A DNA stretch of 40,000 bases, taken from NCBI GenBank assembly GCA_029555925.1, contig JAKPQU010000390.1, positions 1 through 40,000 of the forward strand, read 5' to 3'. Positions 10,282 through 37,000 of this stretch are shown piece after piece. Source of the stretch: Bacillota bacterium (GTDB taxonomy: Bacteria > Eremiobacterota > SpSt-956 > JAKJGF01). The stretch's first letter is position 1; every line of letters starts with the position of its first letter. The notes beneath the pieces were generated by a model. That model was given only the letters and a program-made list of their open reading frames with translations. It was not told where the DNA came from and did no database searches. The position numbers and the translations under genes are program-made.

Positions 10282-10737
10282 GTGTTTTATGTAAAGAAAA
10301 AAATATCTCCCGTTAAGGGGTTTACTCTTGCGGAAATCATGCTTGGTATGTTTCTTTTAGGAATTGTTATGGTTACTGTAACAGGAGTTTTTGTAAGCGG
10401 TTTATCAGGAGCAAGAAAGGCTCAGAAGAAAATAATCACTCTTAATCTGGCAGAAAGTATGCTTGACAGTATACTTCTTATGGATTATTCGGATATAGAT
10501 GAAGGTATCTATAATGGAACAACAACTAAATCTAATGTCGATGGCGATACAATATTATTTCCTCCTGACCCATCTCCACAGGATATTGAAAGCAAAACAG
10601 GAGCAATATATAAAATATCTGTGGAAGAGAAAGGGACTGGGGCAAAAATCAAAAAAATTACAGTAGAAGTATTAATAAAAGGCAGACAGAGTGAGGGAAG
10701 CAGTAAAGCCAGACTGGTAGGCTATAAAGCACAATAA
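10282..10737 (+). CDS. PilV/GspI-like pseudopilin
   Basis: 151 aa. The class III prepilin leader VKG-FTLAE (cleavage after G13, Glu at +5) is followed by a hydrophobic helix of about 22 residues (IMLGMFLLGIVMVTVTGVFV). A small globular part has LNLAESMLDSILLMDY, similar to PilV/GspI proteins, where a conserved LAES/LAEN segment follows the helix. The start is GTG with AAGGA 11 nt upstream. It is the first gene of a three-gene operon with 14 bp to the next start. Prepilin peptidase would cleave and N-methylate it, and it would join a type IV pilus or type II secretion pseudopilus as a minor subunit. Confidence 0.8.
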   Translation: MFYVKKKISPVKGFTLAEIMLGMFLLGIVMVTVTGVFVSGLSGARKAQKKIITLNLAESMLDSILLMDYSDIDEGIYNGTTTKSNVDGDTILFPPDPSPQDIESKTGAIYKISVEEKGTGAKIKKITVEVLIKGRQSEGSSKARLVGYKAQ

Positions 10738-14978: not shown

Positions 14979-15296
14979 AAAATACTCCTTTAAAAGAATT
15001 ATTCTATATTTAATTTTATCACAGTGATATTGAATTGTCTTTTGAATTATCCCTATGGAGTTAAACGAAAAATAAAAAGTAATATTTTTATATTAAATAT
15101 ACTTTTTTTCACTTATATTAAACTAATAAATTCTCTTTTTTCACTCAAATTGAATTTTTTTCTCCATATAAACCTATGAAAAAGTCATTAAATTCCAGAA
15201 TATTTCTTGCACATAATCAATTTATATGTTATTATATAAATAGAATAATTTTCTCCTTTTATGTAATTGTTTATCGAAAGGAGTCTTTTTAAATAT
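14979..15296. other. AT-rich gap without a recognisable gene
   Basis: The 318-bp stretch holds a near-duplicate ttttttcact motif (15104 and 15136, spacing 32 bp) and a weak promoter candidate (TTGCAC 15207, TATTAT 15230, 17-bp spacer) ahead of the second pseudopilin cluster. I see no coding sequence. Confidence 0.4.
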
Positions 15297-15974
15297 ATGA
15301 TGATTATAAAAAGAAAAAAGAACGGTATGTCCCTTGTTGAAATTATGGGGGCAATTTTTGTCCTGTCCTTTGCAATTCTTGCCGTTGCATCTATTTTCCC
15401 CGCAGGTCTTCAAATGAATAGAAAAACAAAAATCAGGATACAGGCACTCGAACTGGCAAGTGGTATAGCAGAAGAAATAAGGCAACTGCCTTATTATGAC
15501 TACAGTAATAATCCCGGAGTAAATAACAGTTTGCTTGATATAGCAAATACCAGCACCAGTGCCGCAGATGGCTGGGATGGATTTACTAACGCTGCAAATG
15601 GTGCAAACCAGGGAGGTGCTAAAGCATGGACACCCAATATTTTACTGCAAACTGTCGGTACAAAAAATGATGTATTCAGCGAGAGAAGTCCTATATTTTT
15701 TCGAAACGGCAGTAATGAAGACACAAGAAGGAACACTCCTGTCACCTTTACACAGCTGGCTCCGATACAGGTTCCTGCTATTCAAATTCAGCCTTTAGTC
15801 AATACCGGTGGAAATATAAGATGTTTTTATACTTACGGTGGTGTCAGCAGATGTCGTATACACAGAATTATAGTTACAGCCAATATAGAAGAATCCTCGG
15901 TAGGACGGATGAAATACAGTATTATACAGGTAGTTACTTACAAGAGTGACGGAATAACCAGTCTGGGAGAATAA
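15297..15974 (+). CDS. PilV/GspI-like pseudopilin, second cluster
   Basis: 225 aa. The prepilin site is KKNG-MSLVE (cleavage after G10, Glu at +5), followed by the helix IMGAIFVLSFAILAVASIFPAGLQM. LELASGIAEEIRQLPYYDY follows, the PilV-like post-helix segment. The start at 15297 is chosen over the upstream TTG because AAAGGAG lies 13 nt before it and the leader then has normal length. It opens a five-gene run through 19931 and mirrors the gene at 10282. The expected role is a minor pseudopilin cut by prepilin peptidase. Confidence 0.82.
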   Translation: MMIIKRKKNGMSLVEIMGAIFVLSFAILAVASIFPAGLQMNRKTKIRIQALELASGIAEEIRQLPYYDYSNNPGVNNSLLDIANTSTSAADGWDGFTNAANGANQGGAKAWTPNILLQTVGTKNDVFSERSPIFFRNGSNEDTRRNTPVTFTQLAPIQVPAIQIQPLVNTGGNIRCFYTYGGVSRCRIHRIIVTANIEESSVGRMKYSIIQVVTYKSDGITSLGE

Positions 15975-15996: not shown

Positions 15997-16854
15997 ATGA
16001 AGAAAGAGCCAGGGTTTACTTTAATAGAGATTTTAATCGGAGTTTTTGTTTTTACTTTACTCTGTACTGCAGCATTTTTGATATTTTCTTACGGACTCAA
16101 GGTATCAGTTCAAAATTCGACGAGGGTACAGATGCAACATAATGCAAGAATAGCTATAGAACGAATCGTTACAGAAGCTAAAAACGCAGCGTTTCTTCCC
16201 TGGCAGAGTGGTTCAACATCATCTCTATATTCTCCAACAATTCCTCCTTCCCCCGTTTTTATACCTTTTATAAATGAATATCAGTATAATCCAAATAATA
16301 TTTCTATTTTGTATTTTACTGCTCCTGATCCTAACGGCCCCAATATGGAAGCGGCTATTTCCAACTTTAATTATTCGAAAAATACATCATATCGTATGGT
16401 ATGTTATTATGTAGATCCAAATTACGATCCAAACGGTTCAGCCAACGGAACTGCAGCTATTATAAGAGCCACAAAAGCTTTTCCGTCAGATATTATAAGC
16501 ACATATTTTAATACAAACTGGACACTCCAGAGTAAACCCGCTAACGTGAATGATATGAAAAATTTGACAAGCACAACAAACGGATGGACAAAAGAAGCAA
16601 TAATTCAAATGCCTTACAAGGCAGATAGTATATCGTTCCTGGTAACACACGATCTGAAACCTGATTACTGGACAAAAAGAAAGACGGAATTTCAAAATGC
16701 CGGTGCTATTTACAGCAATCAAAATAATATTTATGACCCTTTGACATTCAAAATAAAATTAAATTTGACACAGTATCCATATGGTAATACAGGTTACAAT
16801 AAACAGGAACTTACTCTGGATTCAACATTCCAGATAAGAACATCTTATTATTAG
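15997..16854 (+). CDS. PilW/GspJ-like pseudopilin, second cluster
   Basis: 285 aa. The leader MKKEPG is followed by FTLIE (Glu at +5) and the helix ILIGVFVFTLLCTAAFLIF. MQHNARIAIERIVTEAKNA is the typical PilW/GspJ post-helix segment. The ectodomain is rich in Asn, Pro and Tyr with several DPN motifs. AAGGTGG lies 5 nt before the ATG. The 22-bp gap to the upstream gene supports one operon. It is the second-cluster counterpart of the gene at 10752. Confidence 0.82.
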   Translation: MKKEPGFTLIEILIGVFVFTLLCTAAFLIFSYGLKVSVQNSTRVQMQHNARIAIERIVTEAKNAAFLPWQSGSTSSLYSPTIPPSPVFIPFINEYQYNPNNISILYFTAPDPNGPNMEAAISNFNYSKNTSYRMVCYYVDPNYDPNGSANGTAAIIRATKAFPSDIISTYFNTNWTLQSKPANVNDMKNLTSTTNGWTKEAIIQMPYKADSISFLVTHDLKPDYWTKRKTEFQNAGAIYSNQNNIYDPLTFKIKLNLTQYPYGNTGYNKQELTLDSTFQIRTSYY

Positions 16855-19439: not shown

Positions 19440-19931
19440 ATGAAATTCGTAAACCATAAAAGACAGAGGGGCTTCACTCTTCTGGAAATGATGATAGCTA
19501 TAGGAATTATTATTCTGCTTGCAGGTATATCGGTAGGTTCTTATAGACGATATCAGTGGAGCATAGAATACAGGGGGGCTTTGAACGAACTGGAGGGGGA
19601 TATAAAGCGTGCCCAGCAGGTTGCTATTACAAACCCCTACCCGAATCCGTCAGGTGGCCCGACTACATACAGGGTGGAAACATCTACAGGTAAGGAGTAC
19701 AGCATTAGAGTATATCAACAGAATAATACTGTACCTGTAGCACAGATTAAAACAGTAAAATTGCCAAATTCTGTAACAGTAGCCTCTGCGACTACAATGG
19801 TAGAGTTTTATCAAACAGGAGTTCCCGTTTCAGGTACAACAACAATCATAAGCCTTAAATCAGGAAACCTGAATCTGACGAAGAATATAACAATCACTGC
19901 AGTAGGAGGTGTTGTGAAAGAGAATTTTTAA
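19440..19931 (+). CDS. GspH/FimT-like pseudopilin
   Basis: 163 aa. The prepilin site is RQRG-FTLLE (Glu at +5), with the helix MMIAIGIIILLAGISVGSY. LNELEGDIKRAQQVAITNPYP is the segment seen in GspH/FimT, where an (A/L)R.AQ..A motif follows the helix. The C-terminal half is beta-rich (VEFYQTGVPVSGTTTI), as in the GspH fold. It begins 8 bp after the previous stop with AAAGGA upstream. It completes the V-W-X-H set of the second cluster; the first cluster has no H counterpart. Confidence 0.82.
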   Translation: MKFVNHKRQRGFTLLEMMIAIGIIILLAGISVGSYRRYQWSIEYRGALNELEGDIKRAQQVAITNPYPNPSGGPTTYRVETSTGKEYSIRVYQQNNTVPVAQIKTVKLPNSVTVASATTMVEFYQTGVPVSGTTTIISLKSGNLNLTKNITITAVGGVVKENF

Positions 19932-21945: not shown

Positions 21946-21974
21946 TTGTTTTTATGTGTTTATTTTGCTATAAT
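21946..21974 (+). promoter_or_regulatory. Extended -10 promoter of pheS-pheT
   Basis: -35 TTGTTT, 17-bp spacer, -10 TATAAT (21969-21974) preceded by TGC, an extended -10. Transcription would start near 21981, downstream of the in-frame ATG at 21954. Confidence 0.65.
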
Positions 21975-22016
21975 GTCAGGAATAAAAATTTTTCAATCAA
22001 AAACATCGAAAGGCAG

Positions 22017-23612
22017 GTGACAGTCGGCTGTTACAAAACAGTCGCCATCAGAGTGACATCAGATATTATATCTTCTCTTCATCCTCTGGAAATAGAAGTA
22101 CTGAACAGGTTTAAAAGTGAAAATAAATCACTCCTGTGGACAGAAATCCTGGAGAAAACCGGATTAAAAGAAAGCCAGTTAAGAACTGCCATTGAATGGC
22201 TCCTCCACAAAGGACTTATCGTAACGGAAACAACAGGTGTAGAAGAGATTGTAACACTTACAAAAACAGGAATATCCTATGCAGAAAAAGGAATACCTGA
22301 AAAAAGAATTGTACAGATTCTGACTGAAGAGACACAACAAAATACTATGGCCCGTATTGCAGAATTACTCTGTCTTGAAAAAGAAGAAGTCGGCTCTGTA
22401 ACAGGTTTTCTAAAAAAACATAAAGATATCTCCATTGAATCAGGAGGAATCCTAAAACTTATTGCCGGTAATTCTGCACCTTATATAGAGAAAAAACAGA
22501 ATCTTATCAATAAAGTATTCAATGAAAAACAAGTAATGCTCACGGAACTCACAAAAGAAGAACAGGAACTGGCAAGAAGTCTCTACAGAAAAAGAGGAAC
22601 AGAACAGGGGGTATTCAGAATAGATGAAAAACCTGTCATGTTACATCACCTCACAGAACAGGGTAAAGAATTAATATTACATCTGGAGGAAAATCTTGGA
22701 GATAGAAAGACGGAAATCAGTCAGATAACGCCCGAACTGCTTCAGGAAGGGAAATGGAAAGGTGTTAATTTCAGAAAATATAATATAAGTCTCAATCCGC
22801 CCAGGTTAATAATAGGGAAAAAACATCCTTACAGACAATTTCTTGACTGGGTGAGGCAGAAATTCATATCACTCGGCTTCAAAGAGATGAAAGGCCCTGT
22901 TGTGGAAACAGAATTCTGGGATATGGACGCCCTGTTCATGCCTCAGTTTCATTCCGCAAGAAATATCCATGATGTGTACTATATAAAAAAACCTGAATAT
23001 TGCAGAGAAATAGAAGAGCCATATTTATCAAATGTGGCTGCATGTCACGAGCATGGAGGCGCCACAGGTTCTGAAGGATGGAGATATAAGTTCGACAGAA
23101 AGAAAACAAAAAGACTTGTCCTGAGAAGCCAGGGAACGGCACTTTCTGCAAGAACTCTTGCAGGGAATCCTGAAATACCGGGAAAATACTTCGGTATAGC
23201 CAGATGTTTTCGCTATGACCAGATAGATGCGACTCATGGAACAGATTTTTTCCAGAGTGAAGGAATAGTGCTGGATGAAAGTATCAATTTCCCGAAATTA
23301 CTCGGATTATTAAATCTCTTTGCAAAAGAAATAGCAAAAGCAAAGAAAACAAAATTTACCCCTGCTTATTTTCCTTTTACAGAGCCATCGGTAGAACTTC
23401 ATGTAGAACATCCCGTCCTTGGCTGGATAGAACTGGGAGGAGCAGGCATATTCAGACCGGAGGTCACATTGCCTCTTGGTATAGATGTCCCTGTCATAGC
23501 ATGGGGACTCGGTATAGACAGAATGGCCATGGTTTCTCTCGGTATAAATGATATAAGACAGCTCTTTTCCCATGACATGAACTTTATCAGAAATTCAAAG
23601 GCGGTGATATAG
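22017..23612 (+). CDS. pheS: Phenylalanyl-tRNA synthetase alpha subunit, archaeal/eukaryotic type
   Basis: About 531 aa from GTG 22017. The subunit charges tRNA-Phe with phenylalanine as an alpha2-beta2 enzyme. At over 500 aa it is much longer than bacterial PheS (about 340). The N-terminal half carries winged-helix DNA-binding-type domains (LHPLEIEVLNRF, LLWTEILEKTGLKESQLRTAI), as in archaeal and eukaryotic enzymes. The class II core shows KRLVLRSQGTALSAR, FGIARCFRYDQIDATHGTDF (motif 2 region) and WGLGIDRMAMVSLGINDIR (motif 3). The in-frame ATG 21954 lies upstream of the predicted transcript start and is rejected. The ribosome site before the GTG is poor, so the exact start is uncertain; GTG 22053 is the alternative. 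The stop abuts the pheT start. Confidence 0.92.
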   Translation: MTVGCYKTVAIRVTSDIISSLHPLEIEVLNRFKSENKSLLWTEILEKTGLKESQLRTAIEWLLHKGLIVTETTGVEEIVTLTKTGISYAEKGIPEKRIVQILTEETQQNTMARIAELLCLEKEEVGSVTGFLKKHKDISIESGGILKLIAGNSAPYIEKKQNLINKVFNEKQVMLTELTKEEQELARSLYRKRGTEQGVFRIDEKPVMLHHLTEQGKELILHLEENLGDRKTEISQITPELLQEGKWKGVNFRKYNISLNPPRLIIGKKHPYRQFLDWVRQKFISLGFKEMKGPVVETEFWDMDALFMPQFHSARNIHDVYYIKKPEYCREIEEPYLSNVAACHEHGGATGSEGWRYKFDRKKTKRLVLRSQGTALSARTLAGNPEIPGKYFGIARCFRYDQIDATHGTDFFQSEGIVLDESINFPKLLGLLNLFAKEIAKAKKTKFTPAYFPFTEPSVELHVEHPVLGWIELGGAGIFRPEVTLPLGIDVPVIAWGLGIDRMAMVSLGINDIRQLFSHDMNFIRNSKAVI

Positions 23613-25313
23613 ATGCCAACAATAAGCTGTTATTATAAAGATCTCCAGAACCTCTACGGACAAAAAATAGAACTGGAAGAACTGCCTGACTTGCTTTCAA
23701 AAGCAAAAGCAGAATTCAAAGAATATGATGAAAAAACAGGGGAATTAAAGATAGAACTCGTTGATACAAACAGACCTGATCTGTGGTGTGTGGAAGGTGT
23801 GGCAAGACAGATAAGAGAAGCAGTACTACATAAGAAAAGTAATTACCCCTTCTTCTCATCAGACCCGTCAGAAAATGACATGATTATAGTTGACGCAAAT
23901 TTGAAAGACATAAGACCTTTTATAGGGGGATTTCTTGTACTGAATATAAATGTAGATGATGCTCTTCTTACACAGCTCATACAGACCCAGGAAAAACTCT
24001 GTGTAAACTACGGACGTAACAGAGAATTAATTGCCATAGGCGTATATGATGCTTCAAAAATAACATTCCCTGTTTATTATAAAGGTTTTAAAGAGAAGGA
24101 AATAAAATTTGCACCCCTGGGGTTTTCAGAACAAATGAATTTAGGAGAAATACTGGAAAAACATCCTAAAGGTCAGGAATATGCAAAGCTGGTAAAAAAA
24201 TACCCTCTTTATCCTGTCATAATGGATAAAAACAGTAATGTCCTTTCTTTTCCGCCTGTAATAAACAGTGATGACCTGGGTAAAGTGACGGAAGGCAATA
24301 AAATGCTTTTCGTAGAAGTAACAGGCACATCACTGGAAGCTGTCATATTAAGTACAAATATACTGGCATGCAATCTGGCAGACAGAGGGGCAGACATAAA
24401 ACCTTTTGCCGTAAAATATGACAGTGATACAGTAGTTACTCCGAAGGACCTGGCCCAGATTGTATCAGTGGAAAAATCCTATCTTGAAAAGATGCTGGGA
24501 GAAACTATATCCGCTGATTCTATAAGAGAAAAACTTTCTTCTATGGGCTTTACTGTCACATTATGTGAGAATAAAATAACCTGCAAAAGTCCTCCTTACA
24601 GAAGAGACTGCATCCATCCTGTAGATCTGGTAGAAGACTATGCCATAGCAAGAGACTATAACAGTTTTTCCCCTCAAATGCCTGATAAATATACCGTCGG
24701 TTCTGTAGCGCCTATAGCGGAACTGGGAGATACAGTAAGAACATTGATGACAGGTATGGGCTTCCAGGAATTCATCACCTACATTCTTACAGGAAAAGAG
24801 AAAAATTTTTATAAAATGAGAAGAGAAGAAACTGACATAGTTGAAGTGGAAAATGTCATGAGTGACACCTATTCGGTGCTTCGTCCTTCACTGCTTCCTG
24901 TTTTGCTTGAAATAGAAAGTAAAAATCTGAGAGTTGAATTTCCTCATAAGATTTTTGAAGAAGGGGAAGTGGTAATTTATTCTCCTGAAGAAAATTATGG
25001 CAGCAAAACAGTTCATAATGTATCTGCATTGATTTCCCACAGCAACGGAAATTTTTCGGAAATACACAGTTACCTTCATTCACTTATGTATTATCTTGCC
25101 ATTCCTTATAAACTGGAAGAAACTACCAATCCGACTTTCATAGACGGAAGAGTAGGGAAAATAATTTGTTTCGGAAGGGAAGCAGGGATTATAGGTGAGA
25201 TTCACCCTGAAGTTCTGGAGAGATGGGGGATAAATATGCCTGTTTCTGCCTTCGAATTAACATTGAATGAAATAGTGAAGGGTGAGGCTGGTTTTAATAC
25301 TTATGTCAGGTAA
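23613..25313 (+). CDS. pheT: Phenylalanyl-tRNA synthetase beta subunit, archaeal/eukaryotic type
   Basis: 566 aa, the archaeal/eukaryotic length rather than the about 800 aa of usual bacterial PheT. It lacks the N-terminal EMAP-like tRNA-binding domain and the C-terminal anticodon-binding FDX-ACB domain. Visible parts: B1 domain with VDTNRPDLWCVEGVARQIRE, B3/B4 editing domain (about 90-260), B5 domain with CKSPPYRRDCIHPVDLVEDY, and a catalytic-like core with GFQEFITYILTG and GEIHPEVLERWG. The ATG directly follows the pheS stop, and AAAGGCGGTG lies in the end of pheS, so translation is coupled. Both subunits being of this type shows that the pair was inherited or transferred together. Confidence 0.93.
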   Translation: MPTISCYYKDLQNLYGQKIELEELPDLLSKAKAEFKEYDEKTGELKIELVDTNRPDLWCVEGVARQIREAVLHKKSNYPFFSSDPSENDMIIVDANLKDIRPFIGGFLVLNINVDDALLTQLIQTQEKLCVNYGRNRELIAIGVYDASKITFPVYYKGFKEKEIKFAPLGFSEQMNLGEILEKHPKGQEYAKLVKKYPLYPVIMDKNSNVLSFPPVINSDDLGKVTEGNKMLFVEVTGTSLEAVILSTNILACNLADRGADIKPFAVKYDSDTVVTPKDLAQIVSVEKSYLEKMLGETISADSIREKLSSMGFTVTLCENKITCKSPPYRRDCIHPVDLVEDYAIARDYNSFSPQMPDKYTVGSVAPIAELGDTVRTLMTGMGFQEFITYILTGKEKNFYKMRREETDIVEVENVMSDTYSVLRPSLLPVLLEIESKNLRVEFPHKIFEEGEVVIYSPEENYGSKTVHNVSALISHSNGNFSEIHSYLHSLMYYLAIPYKLEETTNPTFIDGRVGKIICFGREAGIIGEIHPEVLERWGINMPVSAFELTLNEIVKGEAGFNTYVR

Positions 25314-29932: not shown

Positions 29933-29971
29933 ATTTTCATATAAATACTTAAGAAAGGTATGGTTATTAAT

Positions 29972-31279
29972 ATGGCTGAAACAAAAACAGATCATAGTTC
30001 TACAAAAGTAAAAGTTCGTCGTGAAATTGTAACATATTTGATGTGTTCAGATGAACTCTGTCCTGACTGTAATAAAAGAAAAAGCATAGATAAAGCCGGT
30101 ATCAGAGTATGTCAGGACTGCGGCGGAGAGTTTACCCTTGCAAAAGGAGATACAGCTATTGACAGACCTGTCATGTCAGGAGAATTAAAAGACGGAAGAA
30201 CTGTTGATGCTTTTCTGCTTGCAGTATTAATGAAAGGAGGATCAGATATTCATCTCTCTGCCGGTTCCCCTCCTATTATGAGGCTTTACGGAAAACTTTA
30301 TAAAATGGATTTTCCGACTGTAACAAAAGCTGAAAGTGAGAAAATAATGAAGGAAATTCTCACTACGGAACAGTTAGAAAAATTTGATGGAGATAAGAAT
30401 ATAGATATATCCTATGAATTAAACGTAGACGATAATACATTTCGTTTTCGTGTAAATATTTACCAGCAACAGAGAGGATGGAGTGCTGCATTCCGTGTAA
30501 TACCCCAGAAAATTCCTACTTTTAAAGAGTTACGTCTTCCTCCTATCGTAGATAGTTTTACCAGACTTCATGCAGGACTTATTCTTATGACCGGCCCTTC
30601 TGGATGCGGGAAAACTACAACTCTTGCAGCTCTTATAGATCATATAAATCAAAACAGAGAAGATCACATAATAACCCTTGAAGACCCGATAGAATATGTT
30701 CACAAAATGAAAAATTGTTATGTAAGACAGAGAGCCATAGGCCATCATACCAGAAGTTTTGCAGCTTCCCTCAGAGCTGCTATGAGAGAAGATCCTGATA
30801 TTATACAGGTAGGTGAAATGAGAGATCTTGAAACAATGCAGCTTGCCATGACTGCGGCAGAAACAGGACATCTGGTGCTTGGAACAATGCCGACAACAAA
30901 TGCTGCAAGAACTATAGACAGAATCATAGATTCTTTTCCTCCTGCACAGCAACCACAGGTAAGAATTATGCTCTCAGAGTCCCTGAAAGGTATTGTTTCA
31001 CAGAAACTCATACCTACAAAAGACGGGAAACAGGTACCTGCCGTAGAAGTTATAGTGTCTACTCCATCACTTGCCCATCTGATAAGGGATCAGAAAACCT
31101 TTAAAATACCTTCTGTAGTACAGACCGGCAGACACCTGGGCATGCAAACTCTTGAAGATTCTCTGCTCGCTTTATATAAAGAAGGTATAATAACCGACCG
31201 TGAAGCCCGTCTGGCTGCAAATGATCAGGTTGTAATAGAAGAAATGCTGGCAGGGAAAACCGTAGAATATAAAGATTAG
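29972..31279 (+). CDS. PilT-family ATPase with N-terminal zinc ribbon, His box lost
   Basis: 435 aa. PilT-type ATPases power pilus retraction at the cytoplasmic base. Residues 25-50 form a zinc-ribbon-like motif (C30/C33 and C47/C50, plus C25). The PilT domain follows, with Walker A GPSGCGKTT (K214), Asp box TLEDPIEYVH (E237/D238) and Walker B VGEMRDLE (E282). The normal His box GTLHTNSA is GTMPTTNA here (P307 for His), although the following RTIDRIIDSFPP is normal. ATP binding is probably kept but catalysis may be altered. The start at 29972 is chosen because AAAGG directly abuts the earlier ATG 29960. A second PilT gene follows after 14 bp. Confidence 0.88.
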   Translation: MAETKTDHSSTKVKVRREIVTYLMCSDELCPDCNKRKSIDKAGIRVCQDCGGEFTLAKGDTAIDRPVMSGELKDGRTVDAFLLAVLMKGGSDIHLSAGSPPIMRLYGKLYKMDFPTVTKAESEKIMKEILTTEQLEKFDGDKNIDISYELNVDDNTFRFRVNIYQQQRGWSAAFRVIPQKIPTFKELRLPPIVDSFTRLHAGLILMTGPSGCGKTTTLAALIDHINQNREDHIITLEDPIEYVHKMKNCYVRQRAIGHHTRSFAASLRAAMREDPDIIQVGEMRDLETMQLAMTAAETGHLVLGTMPTTNAARTIDRIIDSFPPAQQPQVRIMLSESLKGIVSQKLIPTKDGKQVPAVEVIVSTPSLAHLIRDQKTFKIPSVVQTGRHLGMQTLEDSLLALYKEGIITDREARLAANDQVVIEEMLAGKTVEYKD

Positions 31280-31293
31280 GGAGGAACACCACT

Positions 31294-32367
31294 ATGAGTA
31301 AAGTAATTGAAACAGGAATAACAGGAGATTATCATATAAATGAACTTTTTCATCTTATGCTGAAATTAAAGGCATCCGATTTACATCTGGCTGCAGGCTC
31401 TCCTCCTTATTACAGGATTCACGGGAAAATGAGCCGGACTGACTTACCCAATCTCACAAACGACAGGGTAAAAACCCTCTTGACTCAGATATGTAATAAG
31501 AAACAGTGGAGCAGGTTTGAAATGCTGGGAGATCTTGATTTTTCCTATGAACTGGAGGGATATACCCGTTTTCGCTGTAATTATCTGAAACAGAATACAG
31601 GCTGCGGCGGTGTATTCAGAACTATTCCGACAACCATGCCAGATCTTGAAGATTTAAATCTGCCGCCTGTATTGAAGGAAATTGCAGATTACAAGCAGGG
31701 ACTGGTTATAGTAACGGGAGCAACGGGAAGTGGTAAATCAACAACACTTGCCGCAATGATCAATTATATAAACCAGAGAAAAGATGTAAGTATAATAACG
31801 ATTGAAGATCCTGTGGAATTTGTTCATACAAGTAATAAGGCTCTTATTGAACATCGTGAAGTAGGTAAAGATGCAAAATCCTTTGCATCTGCCCTCAGGG
31901 CAGCCATACGTGAAGATCCGGACATAATACTCATAGGAGAAATGAGAGACCTGGAAACTATATCCCTTGCAGTTACTGCAGCTGATATGGGAAGACTCGT
32001 ATTCGGAACACTTCATACCAATACAGCAGCAAAATCAGTAGACAGAATCATAGATGTTTTTCCTCCTGAGCAGCAGGGACAGATAAGATCGATGATTTCC
32101 GTGTCTTTGAAAGCAGTAGTGGCACAGATACTGCTGGAAAAAGCAGGAGGAGACGGAAGGTGTGCTGCAGTGGAAGTACTTATTAACACACCTGCCATGG
32201 GAAATTTAATACGTGAAGGCAAAACATCACAGTTATCTTCTGTGATTTTATCGGGACGCTCCATTGGTATGAGGACTATGGATGAGTCTTTAAAAGAACT
32301 GGTTACATCCGGCATGATAACATTGGACACAGCACAGAAACGTTCTTCTGTACCTATTAATATTTAG
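31294..32367 (+). CDS. pilT: PilT-family type IV pilus retraction ATPase
   Basis: 357 aa, normal PilT length. PilT hexamers hydrolyse ATP to depolymerise type IV pili, giving twitching, DNA uptake and surface sensing. All boxes are canonical: Walker A GATGSGKSTT (K148), Asp box TIEDPVEFVH (E171), Walker B IGEMRDLE (E216) and His box GTLHTNTA (H241). AGGGAGGA lies 10 nt before the ATG. It is the second of two tandem pilT paralogs and the fully conserved one. It could equally be PilU, which PilT-like sequences alone do not settle. A heptamer array starts 2 bp after the stop. Confidence 0.9.
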   Translation: MSKVIETGITGDYHINELFHLMLKLKASDLHLAAGSPPYYRIHGKMSRTDLPNLTNDRVKTLLTQICNKKQWSRFEMLGDLDFSYELEGYTRFRCNYLKQNTGCGGVFRTIPTTMPDLEDLNLPPVLKEIADYKQGLVIVTGATGSGKSTTLAAMINYINQRKDVSIITIEDPVEFVHTSNKALIEHREVGKDAKSFASALRAAIREDPDIILIGEMRDLETISLAVTAADMGRLVFGTLHTNTAAKSVDRIIDVFPPEQQGQIRSMISVSLKAVVAQILLEKAGGDGRCAAVEVLINTPAMGNLIREGKTSQLSSVILSGRSIGMRTMDESLKELVTSGMITLDTAQKRSSVPINI

Positions 32368-34122: not shown

Positions 34123-34512
34123 ATGTCAAAGATCCTAATAGTGGAAGATAACAGTATTATTGCAAAAATGTTAAGGACTACTCTGATGTTGGAGGGTCAT
34201 GATGTATCTATAGCTCCAAACGGCACAGTAGGTCTGGAAAAAGCCCAGACAGATAAACCGGACCTTGTTTTACTCGATATAATGATGCCGGGAATGGACG
34301 GTTTTGAAGTCTGTCGAAGATTAAGAGAAGGAGAAGACACAAAAGATATACCGATAGTTTTCCTTTCTAACCTTTATCAAAGTCAGCATCAGGAACTGGC
34401 AAGACAGCTTGGAGCTATTGATTATCTGGTTAAAGTCCATATGGCACCTCCTCAGCTTGCTGAAAAAGTAAAAGAAATACTTTTAAGAATACAGAAGGAT
34501 AAGGAGGCATGA
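34123..34512 (+). CDS. CheY-like single-domain response regulator
   Basis: 129 aa, receiver only. The phosphoacceptor is D52 in LVLLDIMMPGMDG, the acidic pair is E8/D9, the switch Ser is S82 in VFLSN and the lysine is K104 in DYLVKVH, where the usual KP is KV. GGGAGG lies 9 nt before the ATG. Only one base separates its TGA from the start of the PilB-like pseudo-ATPase, whose ribosome site AAGGAGG lies in its last codons, so the two are translationally coupled. It resembles PilG/PilH-type regulators that steer pilus motors. It probably regulates, or is read by, the downstream protein. Confidence 0.9.
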   Translation: MSKILIVEDNSIIAKMLRTTLMLEGHDVSIAPNGTVGLEKAQTDKPDLVLLDIMMPGMDGFEVCRRLREGEDTKDIPIVFLSNLYQSQHQELARQLGAIDYLVKVHMAPPQLAEKVKEILLRIQKDKEA

Positions 34513-34513
34513 A

Positions 34514-36238
34514 ATGGACGCTATTAATAAAATTAAAGGTTTCCTTCTGACTGCCGGGATAATAACAGAAGCTCAGTGGAATGATGCTTTAAAAATATCC
34601 CAGAGTACAGGAGAGCGTATCGAGAAGGTGCTTGTGGAAAAAGAAATCATAACACAGCAGGAAGCTTTTGAAATACTGGAACTGGTTTATGATGCACCTT
34701 ATATAAACCTTGCAAGAGAACTTGTTGAACTCGATGCACTTATGCTTGTACCAAAAGATGTAGCCCTGACAAATAAATTGATGCCTATAAGTGTCACGCC
34801 CGGACAGATGGTGGTTGCTATGGCAAATCCACAGGATCTTATGGCTATTGATAATATAAGATTTTTAACATCTCTGTCTCTGAAAGTCTATTTTGCCTTT
34901 GAAGAAGATATCATAAAAGCCATAGAGGTATATTATGAAAAAATGAGTCTTCTTCCCACTCCTGATATAATTCTAGAAAAGGGAGCAACACAGAGGAAAC
35001 AGAGAATAACAGAGACGCAGAAAAGAGATAGTATAGGTGCAGCTAAATTCGATGCTCCGGCAAACCTGAGACCGGTACAGGAAAAATCGGCTCTGGAAAT
35101 GGTAGATGATATATTTAAAATGGCTATTGAATGCAGAGCCACAGATATACATTTTGAACCGGTTCCGGAGGGAATGTTACTCAGATTTAGAATCTATGGA
35201 AGACTTCATGACGTACAGGTTATACCTCCTTCAGTTGCAGAACCTATACCTCTCAGGATCAAGGTTATGACTGATTTGAACATAGCAGATCCATCTACAG
35301 CTTTACAGAATGAATGTGATGTAAAAATCGTGGATAAAATCCTCAGAGTAAGAGCATCAGTCATAAGAACAGCCGACGGAGAAAGAATTAATTGCAAGAT
35401 ATTAAATCAAAAACATACCTTTGCAAATTTCTGGAATCTCGTTCTGGATGAAAGAAGCTTTAAACCATTACAGGATATACTCAGAAGAAATAAAGGACTC
35501 CTCCTGCTTGCAAGCCCTCCGGGAAGCGATAGCGAATCAACTCTTTTTGCCATACTTCATATGATAGCAAATCAAAATAAAAGTATAATTATTATAGGTA
35601 AAGGTATGAACCTGCAGTTTAAAGGCATAAATTATATAAGAGTTACCGAACGATTCAGCTATATTGATGCAATAAAAACTGTGGTAAACCAGGATCCCGA
35701 TGTTATCCTTATAGACAAACTGTCAGACAGAGATACCATAGAAATGGCTTTCAGGCTTGCTCTATCAGGTCAGGTCGTTCTGAGCACACTGGAAACCTAT
35801 TTCCATTCCGCAGAAACGATCTGCGGACTTATGAAAAAAGGTATCAGTCCTTTCTGGATTGCTTCTGCCCTGAACGGCATAATAACACAGAGGTGGGCCA
35901 GCAAAATATGCCCTTACTGTAAAACCGAACATTATCTTGGAGAAGATGACTGGCGATGGGAATTTTTAGATATGAAAACTAAAGCCAAAAAAGTGAAACT
36001 TTACAGCGGAAGAGGCTGTAACTTCTGTGATCAGACAGGATACTACGGTTGTATAGGCATATATGAAGTACTGAATATGACAAAAAGAGTCAAATCAGAA
36101 CTTATAAAGAGGCCCATACCTGATGCGATTCACAGACTTGCAGAAAAAGAAGGTATGGAAGCATTGAAAGATAATGCTATGAAATATGTATGGAACGGAC
36201 AACTTAACCTGGATGACATATTTGAAATAGTTATTTAA
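34514..36238 (+). CDS. PilB/GspE-like pseudo-ATPase
   Basis: 574 aa, full PilB length and fold. The N-terminal MshEN/GSPII_E_N-like region (about 5-145) has GERIEKVLVEKEIITQQEAF. The N2 domain follows with ATDIHFEPVPEGMLLRFRI. In the motor domain every nucleotide site is lost: Walker A GPTGSGKTT is SPPGSDSEST (334-343, no Lys), the Asp box is missing (IIIGKGMN), Walker B GEIRD is LIDKLSD (399-405) and the LHTN His box is LETYF (425-429). The C-terminal zinc cysteines survive (C466/C469 and C502/C505), as does YGCIGIYEVL. The uninterrupted frame and kept structural motifs argue for a maintained non-catalytic role, for example as a regulatory partner of a true PilB, linked to the CheY-like protein. 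Confidence 0.9.
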   Translation: MDAINKIKGFLLTAGIITEAQWNDALKISQSTGERIEKVLVEKEIITQQEAFEILELVYDAPYINLARELVELDALMLVPKDVALTNKLMPISVTPGQMVVAMANPQDLMAIDNIRFLTSLSLKVYFAFEEDIIKAIEVYYEKMSLLPTPDIILEKGATQRKQRITETQKRDSIGAAKFDAPANLRPVQEKSALEMVDDIFKMAIECRATDIHFEPVPEGMLLRFRIYGRLHDVQVIPPSVAEPIPLRIKVMTDLNIADPSTALQNECDVKIVDKILRVRASVIRTADGERINCKILNQKHTFANFWNLVLDERSFKPLQDILRRNKGLLLLASPPGSDSESTLFAILHMIANQNKSIIIIGKGMNLQFKGINYIRVTERFSYIDAIKTVVNQDPDVILIDKLSDRDTIEMAFRLALSGQVVLSTLETYFHSAETICGLMKKGISPFWIASALNGIITQRWASKICPYCKTEHYLGEDDWRWEFLDMKTKAKKVKLYSGRGCNFCDQTGYYGCIGIYEVLNMTKRVKSELIKRPIPDAIHRLAEKEGMEALKDNAMKYVWNGQLNLDDIFEIVI

Positions 36239-36277: not shown

Positions 36278-36303
36278 AACGCCCCGTATGCCGGGGCGTT
36301 TCT
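36278..36303. terminator. Bidirectional terminator between convergent genes
   Basis: AACGCCCCG and CGGGGCGTT form a perfect 9-bp stem with loop tatgc. T residues follow on the plus strand (TTTCT) and the arms begin with AA, so both convergent transcripts can end here. Confidence 0.85.
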
Positions 36304-37000
36304 ACATGGTAAATTCTATAGAAAATTTATATCCTCTGGAAGCTAACGGTTCAAGTTTAATAGTTCCTCCATGAAGCTCAACTAAACTCCTGACTACAAT
36401 AAAACTTAGCGCTCTTCCTTTATCTGTATCTATAGTATCAAGAGAAGGTTTTTTTCTTTTAAATATAGCTTTTACAATGGAAGGGTCCAGAAGAAATATC
36501 GTATTGGACATGACTAAATTAATATGATGTTCATCTTCTTTCCAGGCTCTCAGGTCTACCTGTCCCCCTTCTTCAGTAAACAGTAATAGATCTCCCATAA
36601 TATTCTCTATTATTTCTTTTATTCTGTCATAATCACCGAAAAATCTCATATTATCTTCAATATTTATATAAAGATTTTTCCTGTCAATCCTCTCAAGATA
36701 GTTTGTTGAAATTTCTTTCACCAGGTGACTGAAATTTACCGTAGTGGAAGATAAAAGCAATTTTTTTTGCTTTATCTGTTCCCAGGTAAGCATATTATTT
36801 ATTATCCTGACCATTCGTTCACTTTCCTGTATGATAGACCCATAGCATTTTTCTTTTATCATACTGTCTATATCAGGCCTGGACTTGAGAATTCTGGCGA
36901 ATCCAATAATACTTGTGAGAGGACTTTTTAAATCATGTGATAAAACAGAAAGAAAATATTTATGAAGTTCTGTAATACTGGCCGCTTCTATGTGTTTCAT
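36302..37000 (-). CDS. Soluble histidine kinase-like protein with degenerate ATPase
   Basis: 232 aa without sensor or membrane segment. The dimerisation domain is good: FLSVLSHDLKSPLTSIIGFA with H22. The ATPase domain keeps its fold (EGGQVDLRAW, VVRSLVELHGGTIKLEP) but loses key residues. The N box NLIDNAIK is NIMGDLLL (the Mg-binding Asn is Asp), the G1 box DxGxGI is replaced by SNTIFLLD, and the G2 box has DKGRALSFIVV without the GxGLG glycines. Autophosphorylation is doubtful; it may act as a phosphotransfer protein, a phosphatase or a dimer partner. No strong ribosome site. It converges on the CheY-pseudo-PilB unit across a terminator. Confidence 0.8.
   Translation of the reverse strand: MKHIEAASITELHKYFLSVLSHDLKSPLTSIIGFARILKSRPDIDSMIKEKCYGSIIQESERMVRIINNMLTWEQIKQKKLLLSSTTVNFSHLVKEISTNYLERIDRKNLYINIEDNMRFFGDYDRIKEIIENIMGDLLLFTEEGGQVDLRAWKEDEHHINLVMSNTIFLLDPSIVKAIFKRKKPSLDTIDTDKGRALSFIVVRSLVELHGGTIKLEPLASRGYKFSIEFTM

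Follow-up and report, generated by a model that had tools for sequence, protein, structure and literature searches.

A receiver gene adjoins a PilB paralog with replaced catalytic residues

Within the 40,000-nucleotide stretch of contig JAKPQU010000390.1 analysed here (the window), two adjacent forward-strand genes encode a CheY-like receiver-only protein and a paralog of the PilB/GspE ATPases that is probably catalytically dead. The receiver protein (34123..34512) is 129 amino acids (aa) long, matches Pfam Response_reg at 87.6 bits and carries its phospho-acceptor, D52, at 34276-34278. After a single base it is followed by an open frame of 574 aa (34514..36238); the initial annotation of this DNA had placed a receiver-only regulator at just this distance, and both the coordinates and the Pfam domain agree with it.

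Pfam assigns MshEN and T2SSE domains to the 574-aa protein, the former at residues 59-142 in an N1 region (34529..34939, forward strand) whose RLG...Q motifs are degenerate. Its best-scoring NCBIfam model, TIGR02538 (PilB), gives 305 bits, far under the model's cut-off of 676, and phmmer finds approximately full-length matches to the PilB/PilF chains 5zfr, 3jc8, 6olj and 6f8l of the Protein Data Bank (PDB). A structure prediction of the protein alone, as proposed in the initial annotation, yielded a PilB-type fold: the AlphaFold2 model, built from 76 aligned sequences, has a mean predicted local distance difference test score (pLDDT) of 82 and a predicted template modelling score (pTM) of 0.61, with pLDDT below 50 at residues 147-180 and 300-307, and its top PDB match in Foldseek is the PilB structure 5tsh (template modelling score 0.88 by target length, 0.61 by query length). 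With a MshEN-type N1 region, a T2SSE domain and this fold, the protein has the features that define PilB/GspE, and the architecture described earlier (a MshEN-like N-terminus, an N2 domain, four zinc cysteines and an intact frame) is borne out by Pfam, by the alignment below and by the open frame. It resembles PilB/GspE proteins (T2SSE with MshEN; TIGR02538) in domain order, fold, the zinc tetra-cysteine site, an acidic pore residue and core residues of the N2 domain (N2D), including one arginine finger; it differs from them in the replacement of the motifs of ATP chemistry and in its low score against the PilB equivalog model. Its identity to ordinary PilBs is about 23-32%.

The catalytic positions were compared in an alignment (A3) of seven family rows, comprising the window protein, P0001 and P0003-P0007, with 69 ordinary PilB/GspE proteins; P0007 is a C-terminal piece, and those columns that lie nearest the N-terminus are therefore counted on six family rows. 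The PilT-like family is described, in an excerpt of McCallum et al. (2017, PMC5424180), as conserving Walker A and B, a catalytic Glu, two arginine fingers, the Glu of the ASP box and a highly conserved His of the HIS box, and the residues of that work were mapped onto A3 by eye. In the window protein, the Walker A Lys has become Ser340, the ASP-box Glu Gly362, the catalytic Glu Lys402, and the HIS-box His residues Gln420 and Glu427. The Walker A remnant SPPGSDSESTL (residues 334-344; 35513..35545, forward strand, as are all features of this gene) has Ser at column 340 in 6/7 family rows and Arg in 1/7, where all 69 others have Lys; the next residue, normally Ser or Thr, is Glu or Asp in 7/7 family rows. 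Gly337 and Thr343 of the loop are retained in all seven, and in P0006 the loop reads GNKRDTD. The ASP-box remnant (residues 358-368; 35585..35617) has Gly362 in 7/7 family rows, as against Glu in 69/69 others. In the Walker B and catalytic Glu remnant, PDVILIDKLSDRDTI (residues 395-409; 35696..35740), column 402 is Lys in 6/7 and Arg in 1/7 of the family and Glu in 69/69 others. The second His of the HIS-box remnant (residues 417-433; 35762..35812) is Glu427 in 7/7 family rows and His in 69/69 others, and the first (420) is Gln in three family rows and His in four. The replacement of the Walker A Lys, Asp box, Walker B Glu and His box, first noticed in the window protein by itself, is confirmed against the 69 ordinary proteins of the alignment.

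Other structural residues are kept. The tetra-cysteine zinc site (C466, C469, C502 and C505; 35909..36028) is intact and retained in 7/7 family rows, and the acidic pore residue 407, equivalent to E400, is Asp or Glu in all seven. The first arginine finger (R280, equivalent to R271) is Arg in 7/7, and the second (R286-equivalent) is Lys in 6/7 and Arg in 1/7. The R257-equivalent is acidic throughout the family, and the R455-equivalent (residue 463, mapped by eye) is lost. Among columns conserved at 90% or more in the 69 other proteins, the family keeps 12, loses 17 and is mixed at 10 in the former nucleotide region (307-436); the corresponding figures are 14, 9 and 4 in the N2D and 12, 6 and 1 in the C-terminal part.

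The catalytic loss is shared by relatives and maintained

A search for relatives found 219 proteins, and the best 120 of the 219 were listed. Among the matches listed, seven (P0001-P0007) share 58-96% identity with the window protein and the next share about 31% or less; the catalytic residues are missing in all seven, and the Walker A Lys is present in the remaining 113 of the 120. P0002 was left out of the family counts since it looks chimeric, its residues 1-300 being those of P0004 and its residues 301-573 differing from the window protein at two places. Orthologs with intact motifs, which the initial annotation had named as grounds for recent decay, were sought and none was found among the seven relatives. 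The conservation of the lost residues, which it had left to be checked, proved complete for the Walker A Lys, the ASP-box Glu, the catalytic Glu and the second HIS-box His, all of which are lost in 7/7 family rows.

A search of genome contigs with the window protein alone gave no match, and with the family alignment it gave one locus, L001, in a metagenome-assembled genome labelled Bacillota UR.bin48 (G001). A search of viral contigs gave no match. Of 149 genomes of the phylum of G001, 42 gave matches with E <= 1e-60, and identity above 32% was reached in G001 alone, with at most nine candidates scored in most genomes and G001 being the sole genome in its class set. P0001 is labelled Candidatus Eremiobacterota, as is the kinase ortholog P0242, and the window most likely belongs to that phylum. 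In a second, partly overlapping set of non-family PilBs, chosen without the divergent G001 paralogs L045-L048, some of which are degenerate in their own way, all four catalytic residues are present in 42/42.

Nonsynonymous (dN) and synonymous (dS) divergence between the window and G001 is 0.122 and 1.46 for residues 178-574 of the dead paralog, 0.133 and 1.52 for the former nucleotide region and 0.195 and 1.11 for the N-terminal part; values of dS near or above 1 are imprecise, and dN is nonetheless far lower. The receiver gives dN 0.03 and dS 1.14, the two PilT genes upstream dN 0.142 with dS 1.12 and dN 0.099 with dS 1.43, and a kinase-like gene downstream dN 0.424 and dS 1.62, so that the dN/dS of the dead paralog resembles that of the adjoining PilT genes. 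Judged from these sequences, the dead paralog is under purifying selection and its catalytic loss is stable. A gene decaying on its way out would fit the loss of catalytic residues taken alone; the open frames, the identical losses in relatives down to 58% identity and a dN that stays far under dS in all parts tested already contradict it, and we hold it to be hardly tenable. Because relatives share the loss and dN is far below dS, chance or recent decay was rejected as its source.

The gene pair and its receiver are conserved

Locus L001 of G001 has two PilT genes (PilT1 and PilT2) and the receiver, with the first part of the dead ATPase gene again one base away from the receiver; it has no counterpart of the aminopeptidase gene that separates PilT2 from the receiver in the window. 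The G001 dead-ATPase gene is split over the ends of two contigs, C400 and C148, which we infer to hold pieces of one gene. After the dead gene on C148 come a kinase-like gene, convergent to it, and then genes for a small Cys-containing protein, another small protein and a methyltransferase-like protein, arranged as in the window. Direct linkage of receiver and dead PilB was read in these two genomes. The receiver ortholog P0121 and the ATPase ortholog P0005 both come with a longest contig of 23303 bases, and P0122 and P0006 both with one of 6400 bases, which suggests, without proving, that each pair lies on one contig; the intact PilB P0048 likewise comes with a longest contig of 23303 bases. 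The gene pair singled out in the initial annotation recurs with the same spacing in L001 and, as contig size suggests, perhaps also in two further ortholog pairs.

The receiver has the acidic pair, Asp, Ser/Thr and Lys of a single-domain response regulator. Its phosphorylation residues (E8, D9, D52, S82 and K104) are complete and identical in 4/4 family receivers, among which 37 of the 40 residues at positions 81-120 are invariant, versus 66 of 80 at positions 1-80.

Cyclic di-GMP (c-di-GMP) had been suggested as an alternative switch. Its binding by MshEN domains depends, in an excerpt of Wang et al. (2016, PMC5013675), on two motifs of the form RLGxx...LxxxLxxQ. In the six family rows with N1, the first motif has Lys6, Ile7 and Lys/Glu8 at RLG, Trp22 for the first Leu and Ser29 for Gln, and the second keeps Arg35 and has Ile36, Glu37 and Val58 where L, G and Q are expected, so that neither motif of an MshEN receptor is present in these rows; the NCBIfam motif model NF053729 scores 34.6 bits against a cut-off of 38. 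Because the key binding residues are mostly replaced, c-di-GMP binding by the dead paralog is unlikely, and switching by this nucleotide, as the initial annotation had allowed, is not supported. This candidate switch was rejected.

A kinase-like neighbour lacks the ATP boxes

Downstream, on the reverse strand and convergent to the dead paralog, lies a gene for a soluble kinase-like protein of 232 aa (36302..37000; Pfam HisKA and HATPase_c), found at the same place in G001. Judged as a HisKA histidine kinase, it keeps the H-box His and has lost the three ATP boxes, which we take to be the N-, D- and G2-boxes. The H-box His is kept in the window protein, P0241-P0245 and P0247; P0246 is without that part, P0241 is identical to the window protein and P0247 is a fragment. 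Replacement of the N-box Asn by Asp, of the D-box by SNTIF and of G2 by GRALSF or GRALNF is common to the window protein and P0242-P0246, and the G001 protein keeps the N-box and has lost the D- and G2-boxes. All boxes are present in 3/3 control kinases, two from the window and one from locus L052. ChpT and Spo0B are phosphotransferases whose kinase-like fold has a phospho-acceptor His and an ATP-binding domain that has degenerated. The 36302-37000 protein presumably resembles them, and we regard it as a putative phosphotransferase of this kind.

Intact cousins of the family are mostly linked to receivers

Beyond what the initial annotation contained, the locus has this degenerate kinase-like neighbour, and the intact PilB cousins of the dead family are mostly receiver-linked. 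A receiver is fused to the N-terminus of an intact PilB in L042 (G001), L019 (G011) and P0011. In L052 (G006), a receiver, an intact PilB, a soluble kinase, a second receiver and a kinase follow one another in one direction, with PilM and another PilB on the other strand. L051 (G014) and L071 (G010) have an intact PilB with a kinase-receiver fusion about 0.9 and about 2.2 kb downstream, respectively. The L052 and L051 kinases are also degenerate, and the L071 kinase keeps its N- and D-boxes and part of G2. In all, 6/7 intact cousins are receiver-linked by fusion or gene cluster, and 6/7 come from the same phylum. Among other PilB open reading frames in the loci read (PilB model score >=550), at least 6/46 were flagged with a receiver within 3 kb: the fusions L058 and L068 (the latter weak), a PilB next to one fusion, the G006 module approached from its other side, L059 and L069. 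This count is a lower bound because the flanks span only 1.5-4 kb. Receivers fused at the PilB C-terminus occur in L058 (4113-7952, G013), P0028 and P0099; L058 and P0028 fall outside the group of family and cousins in trees, and P0099 stands beside P0028 in a first quick tree.

Several loci were entered in the trees under a second handle for the same gene (L003 for L042, L012 for L051, L013 for the L052 PilB and L028 for the L071 PilB). A 33-row PilB tree built without the motif columns unites family and cousins at 84/58 and places the family as sister to L054, L013, L012 and L028 at 93/86. In a receiver tree of 62 rows, for which database receivers were sampled, the four family receivers group with those of L051, L071, L013 (the second receiver), L003, L019 and P0011 at 83/84. 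The PilB and receiver trees thus appear to agree, with moderate support, in pointing to the same loci. A first quick tree gave 99% for family plus cousins and is not relied on, because it held two very long rows. With moderate tree support, the dead PilB family may descend from receiver-linked intact cousins.

A phosphorylation-gated pseudo-motor as the proposed function

These observations suggest that a former pilus motor was turned into a signalling part in a group of uncultured bacteria. The explanation that we favour, at about an even chance, is a phosphorylation-gated pseudo-motor: a receiver-controlled PilB-type extension ATPase that lost its ATP chemistry and was kept as the output protein of its receiver. 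What sequence provides as its basis is the conserved catalytic loss, the gene pair in two genomes, purifying selection, the complete receiver residues, the kinase-like neighbour without ATP boxes and the receiver-linked intact cousins. The zinc site, the core of the N2D and the acidic pore residue stay while the same catalytic residues are lost family-wide, which supports this explanation. One lineage of receiver-controlled PilB-type ATPases would have lost its ATP chemistry, and another kinase, possibly acting through the His of the 36302-37000 protein, would set the phosphorylation of D52. The receiver would contact the N1 region of the pseudo-PilB, since in the fused cousins a receiver directly precedes N1. 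Phosphorylation would alter the docking of an ATP-independent PilB ring or subunit on the pilus platform (PilC/PilM, encoded elsewhere), and the docked pseudo-PilB might block, hold or release the real PilB and PilT motors, or signal like apo-PilB. The kinase-like and PilB-like neighbours are both without ATP residues and the receiver keeps its phosphorylation site, from which we tentatively read the locus, at somewhat under an even chance, as a phosphorelay with a dead pilus motor as its output and the pseudo-PilB as a clutch or plug, set by phosphorylation, on the machines of type IV pili. With L048, a second G001 paralog of PilB that has no Walker A, pseudo-motors may prove to be a recurrent class of this phylum.

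Several results weigh against the pseudo-motor explanation. The cousin L054 (G011) is without a receiver on its contig stretch, and in L052 the receiver directly upstream of PilB falls outside the group of family receivers, with the second receiver inside it. The branch of the dead family is long (1.7), and in a free search a 49-row PilB tree placed the family beside another, 11-row group. A tree forced to unite the family with the receiver-linked cousins was 20.5 log units better (p-value of the approximately unbiased test, p-AU, 0.82), a test that does not decide, and the grouping to be forced was named after the first quick tree had been seen. The kinase-like orthologs and the ATPase orthologs share no longest-contig size. 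No PilC was found among the 32 window proteins scanned, nor on the two G001 contigs carrying the dead gene. G001 has a canonical pilB-pilT-pilC cluster (L043), with pilM and pilN at other places, and none of the eight T2SSF domain matches is on the dead-gene contigs; the pseudo-motor would therefore act in trans.

The lack of a nearby PilC also fits a function off the pilus, in which the dead paralog would serve the receiver as a scaffold or as its signalling output, in polysaccharide production for instance, like locked apo-PilB in Myxococcus xanthus. A Walker A mutant of PilB in that species drives exopolysaccharide without pili, and dominantly (PMC5544727, in excerpt). The zinc site and the acidic pore residue, which are kept, are not obviously needed by a free scaffold, and both genomes have two PilT genes upstream; we consider this function rather unlikely. 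Less probable still is a regulatory subunit in mixed hexamers with real PilB, whose N2D would lend an arginine to the neighbour's site while its own site stays empty, so that the receiver would set the number of dead subunits per ring. R271 of Geobacter metallireducens PilB acts on the neighbouring unit, according to part of PMC5424180, and its equivalent R280 is Arg in 7/7 despite the loss of the Glu that it would pair with in its own subunit; at the second finger, six rows have Lys and one has Arg. Yet identity to ordinary PilBs is low (about 23-32%), the contacts R257 and H420 are lost in 7/7, that of R455 (residue 463 by eye) is lost too, and R280 is possibly kept for folding.

An unusual chemistry by which the dead paralog still binds or hydrolyses nucleotide is very unlikely: the Walker A Lys with its Ser/Thr, the ASP-box Glu, the catalytic Glu and the second HIS-box His are jointly lost in 7/7, and most replacements remove or reverse charge. 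In its favour are Gly337 and Thr343, the Lys and Arg of the P0006 loop (GNKRDTD), and the AlphaFold2 model, which keeps the core strands and helices in PilB order.

Published systems, compared here through excerpts of the cited papers, share parts of the pseudo-motor explanation. The M. xanthus Walker A mutant of PilB is inactive and yet signals more strongly, and nucleotide-free PilB was proposed as the active signal (PMC5544727); this resembles our case in a regulatory role for PilB without ATPase activity, and differs in that an experimental mutant or a state of a working motor acts there, whereas here a separate, natural dead paralog has its own receiver. In Synechocystis, PilB1 is regarded as the protein through which the CheY-like PixE acts (PMC7690835). 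This PixE/PATAN-CheY case shares with ours the presumed action of a CheY-like protein on a PilB motor; there, however, a PATAN domain and a working PilB are involved, and here a receiver alone and a target that is likely dead. The PilT/PilU and PilB/TfpB pairs (PMC11656802) are paralogous motors of a single pilus, and PilT is able to act even when it does not itself hydrolyse ATP: PilT Walker mutants of Vibrio cholerae still retract pili together with PilU (PMC11656802); in contrast to the dead paralog, those paralogs are described as ATPases and the inactive PilT forms are laboratory-made. Searches of the open-licence literature, mostly by titles and abstract openings, found no description of a natural dead PilB that is tied to a receiver, which is weak evidence of absence.

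It is still an open question how extension of the pilus is turned on and off at the level of its motor, and a 2024 review of PilB, in the part at hand, states that regulation of extension by ATPase interactions needs more work (PMC11656802). A conserved natural PilB without ATP chemistry, with active receiver-linked cousins, separates docking and signalling from force generation, and that separation makes switching of extension at the level of the motor testable. With a dead PilB, the known pseudoenzymes would also include a bacterial motor.

Neighbouring genes and related paralogs

Both PilT-type ATPases upstream of the gene pair are encoded on the forward strand and occur in the same order in L001. 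The first (29960..31279, 439 aa, TIGR01420 at 436 bits) has a Cys-rich N-terminus and a HIS box reading GTMPTTNA, with His changed to Pro, likewise in L001. The second (31294..32367, 357 aa, TIGR01420 at 459 bits) has motifs that are intact by eye.

The second G001 paralog without Walker A, L048 (3-1007 on contig C200), has SSPSKIDLS in place of GPTGSGKT, and its MshEN is of the RLG...Q type. The gene is cut off by the end of the contig and perhaps continues at L049, a minus-strand gene at the end of contig C61; this C61 piece is without the Walker B Glu and the HIS box and lies beside several PilT-like genes. L045 and L047 (G001 contigs C4 and C246) are T2SSE-like with an N-terminus that is helix-turn-helix/excisionase-like by eye; both keep the P-loop and have lost the HIS box, and L047 has also lost the catalytic Glu. 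The PilB query matches the G001 genome at 31 places (E <= 0.001), some of them pieces of one gene, versus eight T2SSF matches, and motor-like genes far outnumber platforms.

Elsewhere in the window, four proteins have a prepilin-type N-terminal methylation motif (Pfam N_methyl; 10282-10737, 15267-15974, 15997-16854 and 19440-19931). The alpha and beta subunits of phenylalanyl-tRNA synthetase are encoded at 21954-25313, and their best NCBIfam models, PRK04172 and pheT_arch, are of archaeal type, in bacterial DNA.

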